Source: Sedimentibacter sp. SX930
GTDB taxonomy: Bacteria; Bacillota; Bacilli; Lactobacillales; Aerococcaceae
Length of the DNA: 64,000 nucleotides
Direction: 5' to 3'
Assembly (NCBI GenBank): GCA_002155105.1
Contig: MUZD01000008.1
Location: 62,001 to 126,000, forward strand
The position numbers and the translations under genes were made by a program. The notes under the pieces are model-generated. The model saw only the letters and a program-made list of their open reading frames with translations, did not search any database and was not told the origin of the DNA. Every line of letters starts with the position of its first letter. The first letter of the stretch is position 1. Of this stretch, positions 45,577 through 49,424 are shown in pieces.

Positions 45577-46905
45577 TTATTCAGGGGATGCCACGCTACG
45601 GTCGGATATGTTTTTCCTGAATCTATAGGCCAAAAACAGCGAGCGTATGTAAAGATCGATTCCGATTGAAATCCAAACGCCGGCAATTCCCCAACCCAAC
45701 ACTCTTCCCAAAAGGATCACACCGATTATGCGCAAACACCACATCCCGAAAGCTGTACTGTACAATGGCGATTTGGTATCGCCCATTCCTTGCAGGGAGC
45801 CTGTCGTGATCAGGCTGATCGCAAGTCCCGGTTGGTTGAATGCATCTATTCTCAGGGCTGTCACGATTTGATCGATTGCTTCAGCATCCGAGGTGAACAG
45901 TTCGGCACAATAAGGGGAACCCACAAACAGAATGATCCCCAAGAAACTCATGATGACTACGCCAAATGCTGCCGATAGGATGGCGACACGTTTTGCCTCC
46001 TTGAAATCCAATGCGCCTGTACTGTTCCCGACGAGAGTGGTGGCAGCAGTGGCCAACCCATACGCCGGCATATACACAAAGCTTTCGATATTTCCCGCGA
46101 TGGAATGCGCCGCAAAAGTTTTTGCACCGATCGCAACGATCAATCCAAAATAGACTACTTGCCCCACCCGCATGACCAATCTTTCAAGCGCTGCTGGAAT
46201 TGTAAGCCTCACTAATGGCGCATAATCACTTTTTACAAAAATGGATTTCAGCTCGAATGAAACAGGGGACTTCTTTATCTGTTTGTACAACAGCAGGCAT
46301 CCCAACATTCTTGCAACCGTTGTGCCTATCGCAGTCCCGACAACGCCAAGCGCCGGAATCGGTCCGATACCAAAAATCAGAATGTAGTCCAAACCCACAT
46401 TCAAAATGTTTACGATTACGCTGACTTGCATGGGGGACTTTGTATTTCCGGCTGCCCGCAGGATGCTTCCGAAAATGGTCATGACCGCCAAAAAGACTGA
46501 ATTGCCCCCCACAATGTAGAAAAATGCAGTAGAATAAGCCATCACTTGGTCATCCGCGCCCATCAACGCCAAAAACGGTTTCCCAAAAGCAAGCGTCAGT
46601 AACCCAAACAGCAAGCCGATGATCACTGCGGAAAATGTTGACTGTTCTGCAATTCGGACAGCACCTTCCCTATCCTTCGCCCCTAGTTTTTGGGCTATCA
46701 GGGAAGAAGTCCCTACCCCTAATGCTATGAATATCGCCAAATACACATTCAGGATCGTATTGGCAACGCCGACTGCCGTAACGGCCATAAGCCCGATTTT
46801 GGCTATCAGCAGCGTATCAACGAAGCCTACCAGCGTCTGCAGCAAATTTTCGATTGTTGCAGGAATTGCCAAATTCAGAATTTTCTTTCCAGTGCTTTCT
46901 TCCAT
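45577..46905 (-). CDS. MATE family multidrug/toxin efflux transporter
   Basis: A 442-residue, 12-segment membrane protein with two MatE halves. The first begins KKILNLAIPATIENLLQTLVGFVDTLLIAKIG and the second at VRLTIPAALERLVMRVGQVVY (about residue 232). Such pumps export cationic or aromatic compounds by Na+ or H+ exchange; the substrate cannot be read from sequence. It starts six bases after the stop of a CsoR-family regulator, and the two form an operon behind that regulator's palindrome, so its substrate may relate to what the regulator senses. Confidence 0.9.
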   Translation of the reverse strand: MEESTGKKILNLAIPATIENLLQTLVGFVDTLLIAKIGLMAVTAVGVANTILNVYLAIFIALGVGTSSLIAQKLGAKDREGAVRIAEQSTFSAVIIGLLFGLLTLAFGKPFLALMGADDQVMAYSTAFFYIVGGNSVFLAVMTIFGSILRAAGNTKSPMQVSVIVNILNVGLDYILIFGIGPIPALGVVGTAIGTTVARMLGCLLLYKQIKKSPVSFELKSIFVKSDYAPLVRLTIPAALERLVMRVGQVVYFGLIVAIGAKTFAAHSIAGNIESFVYMPAYGLATAATTLVGNSTGALDFKEAKRVAILSAAFGVVIMSFLGIILFVGSPYCAELFTSDAEAIDQIVTALRIDAFNQPGLAISLITTGSLQGMGDTKSPLYSTAFGMWCLRIIGVILLGRVLGWGIAGVWISIGIDLYIRSLFLAYRFRKNISDRSVASPE

Positions 46906-46913
46906 ATTATCAC

Positions 46914-47195
46914 CTAATTCATTTTGTTGTACTGCGAAATTACTTTTTGCAGTTTCTTCATTTCTTCATCCAAATCAGCGCCTTCACTGACGTGCATCAG
47001 AGCGTGCTCAGTTTGGGCTTCCAGAAGAATGTGGCTGATTTTCTGGATGGCCGATCGAGTCGAATTCAATTGGATGATGACGTCAGCGTACTCTTTTTCT
47101 TCGAGGATCATCTTTTTGATTCCCGCTACTTGTCCTTCGATTCGATTCAAGCGTTTAACGAGACTGTCCGTTCTGTGTTCCTGTGAATGAGACAT
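46914..47195 (-). CDS. CsoR/FrmR-family transcriptional regulator lacking metal-binding cysteines
   Basis: A 93-residue all-helical DUF156 repressor. The N-terminal signature SLVKRLNRIEGQVAGIKKMI is diagnostic. In CsoR, copper is held by a Cys in helix 2 and a His-x3-Cys in helix 2'. Here the aligned positions are EYADVIIQ (Tyr or Ala for Cys) and LLEAQTEHAL (Gln for His, Ala for Cys). The protein has no cysteine at all, so copper, persulfide and FrmR-type formaldehyde sensing by Cys are excluded. ATG 47195 follows AAGAGGTG. It is co-transcribed with the MATE pump. Confidence 0.88.
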   Translation of the reverse strand: MSHSQEHRTDSLVKRLNRIEGQVAGIKKMILEEKEYADVIIQLNSTRSAIQKISHILLEAQTEHALMHVSEGADLDEEMKKLQKVISQYNKMN

Positions 47196-47220
47196 AATTT
47201 GCACCTCTTATTTATATAGG

Positions 47221-47241
47221 ATATGCCCCCATAGGGCATAT
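47221..47241 (-). promoter_or_regulatory. Palindromic operator of the CsoR-family regulator
   Basis: ATATGCCC-N5-GGGCATAT is a perfect inverted repeat ending 26 bp upstream of the regulator start. Its G/C-run arms are typical of CsoR/FrmR-family operators, so autoregulation of the regulator-MATE operon is likely. Confidence 0.7.
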
Positions 47242-47306
47242 AAAATTATATAAAAAAATTCATCAGGAGTCAATCTTCGGCAGCAGTTGAGTTTGAAAAA
47301 TAGAGC

Positions 47307-47357
47307 AAACAAAAAAGGACCGGATAACCATTTCTGGCCATTCGGTCCTTTTGTTTG
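47307..47357. terminator. Terminator of groESL (possibly bidirectional)
   Basis: AAAGGACCG (47314-47322) and CGGTCCTTT (47343-47351) pair, flanked by A- and T-rich CAAACA/TGTTTG arms. On the minus strand the stem ends in TTTTTTG. It is the only clear stop for the groESL transcript, 450 bp past groEL. Confidence 0.75.
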
Positions 47358-47507
47358 TAGAGCTCAGTGCTTCCACATCTTATTAGAACGGTTCTGAATC
47401 CTGTTTAGTTGAACTCTGAATTGCAAGCAGAACGTGCATCAATAAACTTAGTACTTATAAAGCTAAAGACCTCAAAACGCAATTCATCGTATCCTGTAGT
47501 TGAGTTC

Positions 47508-47670
47508 TGATTCGCAGATACCCCTCCCGTTTTGTCATGGCTCTTGCGATTTTTAATCGCTTAGAGACATGATACACTTGACCGGTACGGTCACAGTGCG
47601 TCCTTGCGTAGTGAACAAAAGAGGTTCACTTCGCTGGGTGCTCCAACGTCCGGGTATCTAAACGCGAATC
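47508..47670. other. Cloverleaf-like multi-hairpin insert
   Basis: Outer stem GATTCGC-AGATACCC pairs with GGGTATCT-AAAC-GCGAATC. Inside are three hairpins: TCATG-CTCT-GCGATT with AATCGC-AGAG-CATGA, TGACCG-gta-CGGTCA, and GCG-GTGAAC with GTTCAC-CGC. The nesting is too regular for chance and suggests a folded RNA or DNA structure. No known RNA family was recognised. Confidence 0.6.
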
Positions 47671-47695
47671 ATCACATCCTGTTTTAGTCGAACTC

Positions 47696-47797
47696 TGAAT
47701 CCCAGAAATCTCCGCCTAAGCTGAAATCCCCCACCTCGACCAAACCCGGGTCGTGTTGGGGGATTTCCTCTTAGTGCTCGATTTCTAGAGTGGGATT
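47696..47797. other. Nested long-hairpin insert
   Basis: Outer arms GAATCCC-AGAAATC and GATTTCT-AGAGT-GGGATTC enclose CTAAG/CTTAG, an 11-bp GAAATCCCCCA/TGGGGGATTTC stem and a CGACC/GGTCG tip. The fold is close to one long interrupted hairpin of about 100 nt adjoining the groEL stop. Confidence 0.6.
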
Positions 47798-47810
47798 CAT
47801 CGTATCCTGA

Positions 47811-49424
<1,614 letters not shown>

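Follow-up and report, generated by a model that had tools for sequence, protein, structure and literature searches.

The array downstream of groEL

Analysis of the window, i.e. the whole 64-kb stretch of DNA considered here, showed that the region between the stop codon of a Trichococcus groEL gene and a hairpin with a T-run (47352-47307) is occupied by an array (47384-47808, minus strand) of three hairpin cassettes and a remnant, lying directly 3' of the stop. The features are as follows:

47811..49424, minus strand: groEL, an ORF of 537 aa with GroEL sequence and a GMM C-terminus
47811-47813, minus strand: groEL stop codon, adjoined on its 3' side by the array
47685..47808, minus strand: cassette 1, type A (match to covariance model R1 at 47694-47802; letters checked), with left linker AGGATAC (47808-47802; letters checked) followed by GATG and stem, and core GAGCACTAAGAGG...CAGCTTAGGC followed by closing stem and CAGA
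47693-47685, minus strand: right linker of cassette 1, GTTCGACTA (letters checked)
47497..47680, minus strand: cassette 2, type B with module C nested inside (from sequence comparison; letters checked), with closing stem ATTCGC/GCGAAT, core ACGTTGGAG...AAACGG, left linker AGGATGT and right linker ACTCAACTA
47531..47605, minus strand: module C, a separate dispersed repeat with two hairpins and a length of about 75 nt, lying within cassette 2
47406..47495, minus strand: cassette 3 (letters checked), with closing stem AATTGC/GCAATT, linkers AGGATAC (left) and GTTCAACTA (right), and an interior that corresponds to the 3' portion of module D (GAGGTCTTTAGC...)
47384..47402, minus strand: collapsed fourth unit AGGATTCAGAACCGTTCTA, read from the sequence
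47307..47352, minus strand: inverted repeat and T-run, presumed groESL terminator (inverted pair I2, 18 nt, 83% complementary)

The collapsed unit consists of the start of a left linker fused to a right linker of another class. Type B copies without the nested module C are found elsewhere, as are longer A+D forms of the cassette 3 type (at L010, L020, L025 and L028). Direct repeats of two families, D1 and D2, each occur three times (69-94% relative to the reference copy) along with an inverted pair I1 of 38 nt (76% complementary). For 47380-47815 on the minus strand the folding energy is -155.4 kcal/mol, as against -115.0 +/- 6.3 kcal/mol for 100 shuffled versions (z = -6.4). Given this z-score and the recurrence of its parts at other loci, the array is beyond chance, and in this respect the original prediction of direct repeats with closing inverted repeats proved to be sound. 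Its division of the region into a repeat of about 40 bp and unrelated inserts has to be redrawn: the repeats exist, but each is composed of a right linker, a spacer, a left linker and the adjoining arms, while the supposed inserts are the cassettes themselves.

The original placement of the array ahead of the groESL terminator agrees by eye with the T-run hairpin at 47307-47352, although a strict terminator scan did not call that hairpin. A scan of 47100-47900 for promoter-like sites recovered none inside the array and a single one beyond the hairpin (47273-47245).

A common plan with exchangeable modules

Comparison of 20 stretches fetched from the source genome revealed a common plan, in which a cassette of about 105-120 nt is a single imperfect hairpin closed by complementary arms. 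The 5' half comprises a 7-nt left linker (AGAGCGT, AGAGTGT, AGGATAC, AGGATGT, AGTGTGT, AAGATGA and others) followed by GATG, then a closing stem of some 6 bp that a bulge, usually GTTTAG, GGGTAG or CTCTAG, separates from a second stem, and finally one or more core internal loops and a variable terminal hairpin; the 3' half supplies the complementary arms, CAGA and a right linker (ACGCGTTT, GTTCAACTA, ACCGTTCTA and others). The arms vary between copies and yet remain complementary, whereas the linkers, a bulge and the core loop are conserved. Three core types were recognized, namely A (GAGCACTAAGAGG...CAGCTTAGGC), B (ACGTTGGAG...GAAACGGTAGTGG) and E (ATCACTGGAGC...GTGAAGTGG), while module D substitutes for the 3' portion of A. 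Module C, a repeat in its own right, occurs alone (L014 and L015) or nested in B cassettes, and its sequence (query positions about 232-306) has many matches in Trichococcus and in G014, a genome from another family. Most arrays end with an extra left-linker remnant. A generic rule capturing only the closing elements (GAT[GA] with a 6-nt stem, then its complement with [CT]AGA[AG]) matched 82 times across 535 kb of Trichococcus DNA, with a few evident chance matches among these, as opposed to 5 times in a control shuffled in two-base blocks.

Covariation of the stems

The original prediction had pointed to compensatory changes in the stems as a means of checking it, and these are abundant. In 14 type A copies of the source genome RNAalifold predicted 33 pairs, of which 22 show double changes. 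In a larger alignment (A3; 77 copies, 67 distinct) 95.2% of cells are paired, versus 70.8% upon shuffling, with changes on both sides in 31 of the 33 pairs; in an alignment of 28 distinct copies with no Trichococcus rows (A4) the corresponding values are 94.1% versus 58.5% and 32 of 33. Both alignments were fitted to a model and lean towards it, but the controls in which the partner is slid by one column use the same alignments, and there pairing falls to 41-44%. Of the rows of A4, those from G014, G042 and G072 were among the copies used to build the broader model R2 (see below), while the Lactobacillaceae rows were not. The internal loops persist while the arms change. Wobble pairs are scarce (G-U in 52 of 2107 cells, a count with no known-RNA yardstick beside it), and once the top pair is left out the wobble ratios (33:21, 14:12 and 33:25) do not clearly or significantly favour the sense strand; this test does not establish selection on the sense RNA strand rather than on a DNA strand.

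Phyletic distribution

A blastn search of the source genome with a 551-base query recovered 28 matches, including the window itself, and the covariance model R1, built from the 14 type A copies of this genome, recovered 22. Within the window R1 has a single match at E 0.001, which is cassette 1 (90.1 bits, E 2.8e-23), the type A model missing cassettes 2 (type B) and 3 (D-derived). All 13 Trichococcus genomes contain R1 matches, 7-36 in each. The second locus anticipated by the original prediction is thus present many times over, and since these loci retain the same frame with new inserts, its suggestion of a hairpin-cassette repeat family holds. An exact pattern of 22 fixed bases, searched in one genome per species across 84,980 species, recovered 60 stretches, all titled Trichococcus. 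Of 76 genomes of the family to which Trichococcus belongs, R1 matched 15, i.e. the 13 of Trichococcus and two from other genera. These two, together with G014 from another family, contain relatives with the same frame and different arms; tandem copies are seen in G014 and G042, and G014 shares the linkers.

The broader model R2 extended the family to 58 of 395 genomes of Lactobacillales (11 of the 58 being Trichococcus) and 27 of 80 genera, and to nine of 299 genomes drawn from the class Bacilli, the source genome and G014 being among the nine. Bacilli outside Lactobacillales contain tandem same-strand arrays, with six matches in L315 and four each in L304 and L317; the matches outside this order were accepted on visual inspection and on their repetition in tandem, as the least secure members of the family. 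A blastn search of plasmids and phages with the copy from the window recovered no match. In the plasmid search with other copies, one from Lactobacillaceae (L180) likewise had none, while L178 matched 10 records. Copies lie between or beside sugar PTS genes on plasmids of Lacticaseibacillus paracasei (L318:2014-2118 and L319:1878-2109), indicating that the family can travel on plasmids.

Searches with Rfam found no family match on the element, either in the window (46900-48500, E-value mode) or at 32 other loci, and at the gathering score the element itself belongs to no known Rfam family. Some neighbouring or enclosing matches were noted. The model match L303:1501-1606 (G538, of the same class) lies directly after a 23S rRNA, between it and the 5S rRNA, and has rRNA and tRNA matches beside it. 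An element copy in G014 (L163:1322-1759) lies inside a match to the T-box leader (RF00230, 93.5 bits against a cut-off of 93). In G654 a match to the small RNA tsr24 (RF02577, 62.9 bits) at L309:1767-1913 on the minus strand lies about 160 nt from an element without overlapping it.

Placement and orientation relative to genes

The cassettes of an array always share one strand (no mixed-strand array among 63 arrays of 61 sequences), and this is mostly the strand of the upstream gene. With script-based gene calls, 45 of 58 arrays were sense and 13 antisense; hand reading moved four to sense, and L045 and L066 to antisense as orthologues of the L035 site, giving 47 of 58 in sense, with the remaining 11 representing two orthologous sites. 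Similarly, the script placed 17 of the 22 matches in the source genome in sense and hand reading added one, the four antisense ones falling at three sites. Most arrays abut the stop codon: 37 of the 45 script-called sense arrays start within 14 nt of it, and for 13 of the 22 matches in the source genome the model start falls between 3 nt upstream and 8 nt downstream of it. The stop is often a TAG overlapping the first bases of the linker, and in one gene it is a TGA within the linker. A gene for a GNAT-type acetyltransferase appears to continue in frame into a cassette (L077:2440 and L097:1494), which, if it does so, would derive its final residues and stop codon from the cassette. Among 31 loci from outside Trichococcus (parts of L158-L181 and L303-L315) the start lies within 25 nt of a sense stop in 12, and the upstream call is on the opposite strand in 10, the same naive caller having been used.

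The upstream genes, identified from their C-termini, include mnmE, gatB, argS, hisIE, purH and those for glutamine synthetase, glutathione reductase and a CdaR-like regulator; the 60-residue C-terminal pieces score below whole-protein family cut-offs, as expected, and two of ten had no match. Some copies are intercistronic between co-directed genes (mnmE-mnmG and purH-purD, with mnmG and purD recognized by eye), so that the arrays are not only pre-terminator elements. In G012, which is a single contig, 13 of the 23 matches listed (out of 36) are on the leading strand and 10 on the lagging strand, assuming a terminus opposite dnaA, and two lagging-strand genes have sense cassettes. This implies that orientation follows the gene rather than replication.

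Turnover of cassettes and target-like repeats

At the groEL site all ten congeners with a readable downstream region have two to four units in differing combinations, an eleventh being cut off by the end of its contig. To avoid picking only occupied sites in relatives, ten gene 3' ends carrying the element were chosen from the source genome and their orthologues examined across the genus, yielding 88 downstream regions outside G000 and G009, the latter being of the same species (eight G009 matches were left out). All 88 were scored by hand; automatic tagging had given 65 of 88, with some D and B calls that were spurious and some E and collapsed copies overlooked. An intact cassette follows the stop in 62 of the 88 (per site 7/9, 5/9, 8/9, 7/10, 3/9, 3/6, 10/10, 6/10, 10/10 and 3/6); the remaining regions have a collapsed unit or a lone left linker, or are empty. 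Hand reading showed that the core type varies between species at all ten sites and that a single site can hold different whole cassettes in different species. Nested and collapsed copies were observed at several sites, as were clean losses. The earlier suggestion of a recombination substrate is thus upheld as to the outcome, whole units differing between species at one site, while neither an enzyme nor an event was seen.

The bases between a right linker and the next left linker resemble those before the first left linker. In 36 spacer/target entries the mean match is 1.23 as against 0.44, a value reached in 0 of 10,000 permutations. In 49 entries a match of at least 3 nt occurs in 11, as against 3.1 expected by permutation, and 19 have no match at all; the entries are made by the last six upstream bases, and some orthologous sites are counted more than once. 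At the glutathione reductase site the empty form has AGATAG once, while a remnant form has AGGTAG before it and AGATAG after it. Read from these letters, the two forms would fit a 6-bp duplication with one later change; this is the one instance of support from an empty site, with one mismatch. The short target-duplication-like signal (11 of 49) suggests that cassettes arrive by insertion.

Comparison with known repeat families

Nearest in kind, ahead of NIME, the bcr repeats and attC sites, are the BOX elements of Streptococcus pneumoniae, which the available text of PMC3049150 describes as dispersed, modular, hairpin-forming and intergenic, with a variable number of modules, in part transcribed, and judged to be parasitic. 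The present family is likewise dispersed, modular, hairpin-forming, intergenic and variable in module number, and as BOX can form composites with T-box riboswitches (PMC3049150), so does the copy in the T-box leader of G014. However, as described there, BOX consists of boxA, boxB(n) and boxC with terminal modules unlike the repeated one, whereas here every cassette closes on itself; compared by description, boxA and boxC have no counterpart, the arrays having just the trailing left-linker remnant. BOX elements also show a gradually decaying distance to genes and an excess at convergent sites, while the present arrays abut stops in sense. Further, BOX is reported in that account from S. pneumoniae and S. 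mitis, with relatives in S. suis and near absence from other streptococci (PMC3049150), as opposed to the many genera observed here.

NIME arrays with dRS3 repeats, in the text available (PMC3898611), similarly alternate a short repeat with inverted ends and different inserts in intergenic regions, but in the present family the arms change along with the insert that they close. The exact dRS3 motif, ATTCCC(N8)GGGAAT, was found in none of 330 loci.

REP and BIME elements occur at the 3' ends of genes and between co-transcribed genes. The accounts at hand (PMC3733652, PMC2817692) describe them as structured repeats outside genes that form composite arrays, in which respect they resemble the present ones; but REP units are of 20-40 bp, with a GTAG or CGTC tag and alternating orientation, whereas the cassettes are of about 105-120 nt and directly oriented. 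GTAG is present at a place comparable to the REP tag in 20 of 49 scorable rows (of 67 distinct). The 20-40 bp palindrome with tag that typifies REP/BIME with RAYT was not found in the cassettes, and the Y1 transposase (PF01797) does not track the repeat: six genomes with the repeat lack it (G042, G014, G268, G371, G213 and G538), G022, G023 and G058 have it but no R1 match, and it is also present in all ten Trichococcus genomes tried and in G072 and G309.

The bcr1-bcr18 repeats of the Bacillus cereus group are dispersed and intergenic, with about half of them in mRNAs as UTR or intercistronic parts; bcr1-bcr3 are called MITE-like, and bcr3 correlates with mRNA half-life (PMC3446304). The text available describes them in B. 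cereus strains, with no mention of cassette arrays following stops, and they are set apart here by description alone. The attC sites of integrons, according to the part of PMC2727003 consulted, retain structure with little sequence conservation and are recognized by unpaired bases; conserved structure with diverged sequence and tandem arrays are shared features, but here the whole cassette is the hairpin, with no gene between sites. The integron integrase (TIGR02249) exceeds its cut-off in none of 18 genomes, with sub-cut-off matches in all 18 and in all 14 control genomes. The distribution of both enzymes across genomes argues that neither the Y1 transposase nor the integron integrase is the mover.

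The original exclusion of a CRISPR, an IS and a simple terminator was borne out. The inserts are hairpins of varying length common to other loci, in place of the unique, non-palindromic, equal-length spacers of a CRISPR; and the terminal arms, though complementary, differ from copy to copy, in place of the conserved terminal inverted repeats of a MITE. A search of open-licence PMC literature found no description of the family, which is apparently unnamed so far. A survey of stem-loop families in 40 genomes, in the part available, lists clusters in Enterococcus faecalis and Lactobacillus johnsonii (PMC2267715), and the family may already have been sighted among these. Its architecture, placement and breadth distinguish it from BOX, NIME, bcr and attC. 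It belongs with the modular structured interspersed repeats, and might even be a kind of its own among them.

Proposed mobility and function

These observations identify the region as a non-coding hairpin-cassette array, one member of a dispersed modular repeat family of Bacilli whose units are probably non-autonomous, mobile and co-transcribed as structured 3' UTRs or intercistronic spacers; the best reading is a modular mobile repeat that is BOX/BIME-like but distinct and read as a structured 3' UTR. A cassette would insert next to a stop codon or to a left linker already in place, with duplication of a few target bases; losses would come about through deletions from one directly repeated linker to another, leaving n cassettes with n+1 left linkers. 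A putative factor might recognize the folded strand through its conserved internal loops, leaving the arms free to drift as long as they pair. If co-transcribed with the upstream gene, the cassettes could serve as structured 3' UTRs or intercistronic spacers, their likeliest effect being on the decay and relative expression of the mRNAs that they end, here that of groEL, and they may be kept or tolerated at sites where they help. A strong sense bias is unusual for selfish DNA and counts against this reading, although the bias is not absolute; so do the lack of any mobilizing enzyme in the searches, the minority share of entries with a target-like match (11 of 49) and the wobble ratios, which do not clearly favour the sense strand. 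More tentatively, the family may constitute an unnamed class-wide mobile element whose inherited unit is the fold rather than the sequence, with fixed unpaired motifs and drifting arms, placed by a factor in sense right behind stop codons so as to furnish interchangeable 3' ends for housekeeping mRNAs.

Several alternatives have to be weighed against the mobile repeat. The original prediction had also raised a regulatory RNA, and the hairpin could indeed be a platform for a protein or small molecule controlling decay or termination, in a cis-regulatory RNA family whose cassettes move by homologous recombination at shared linkers. The sense orientation and post-stop position would agree with this, as would the conservation of internal loops across families, the intercistronic copies and the persistence of sites with interchangeable cassettes (62 of 88). 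However, the upstream genes (mnmE, gatB, argS, hisIE, purH, groEL and those for glutamine synthetase and glutathione reductase) have no single common pathway, clean losses and nested or collapsed copies recur, and the sense-strand G-U excess is not significant once the top pair is omitted; we therefore consider such a family somewhat unlikely. The paucity of wobble intermediates, together with the change of arms in blocks, might alternatively point to neutral palindromic repeats, devoid of function or active mobility, in which template-switch (quasipalindrome) correction at replication maintains the complementarity of the arms, and the collapsed copies do resemble replication deletions. But correction of this kind would be expected to remove the core loop, the asymmetric bulge and the GA/GA and AG/AG mismatches, all of which are among the most conserved features even between families, and it leaves the sense orientation, stop-codon adjacency and spread unexplained, making it improbable.

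A folded single strand could also be the substrate of a putative host or element recombinase in a mobile cassette system, in the manner of integron attC sites or IS200/IS605. A conserved structure in a poorly conserved sequence, with unpaired bases that are themselves conserved, has been described for attC (PMC2727003) and would accord with this, as would the tandem arrays and whole-cassette exchange. Still, the distribution of the integrase and the Y1 transposase, and an orientation that follows the gene and not replication, speak against it. To our knowledge, short target duplications such as those suggested by the spacer matches are not expected of integron or IS200/IS605 enzymes, and on balance this recombinase-driven scheme appears unlikely.

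Bacterial 3' ends are usually regarded as short and gene-specific. In the present case, a common, exchangeable structured module follows the stops of unrelated housekeeping genes across Trichococcus, and a module built on the same frame occurs in other Lactobacillales. Should the mover be found, it would represent a system that selects by shape, and if the cassettes alter mRNA decay they would amount to a portable 3' UTR part. The sites constitute natural replicates, in which one gene has different cassettes or none in sister species, making both effect and mobility directly testable.

Other repeats adjoining the arrays

Two further kinds of intergenic repeat were noted next to the cassettes. 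Another tandem repeat, with units like TTGTCCGATTCTTCCGCCTTATCGGACAACC, follows the cassettes at L035, L108 and L125 and occurs in several Trichococcus genomes. A third kind, made up of CTCCGG...CCGGAG palindromes, lies downstream of the arrays at L139, L145 and L070.
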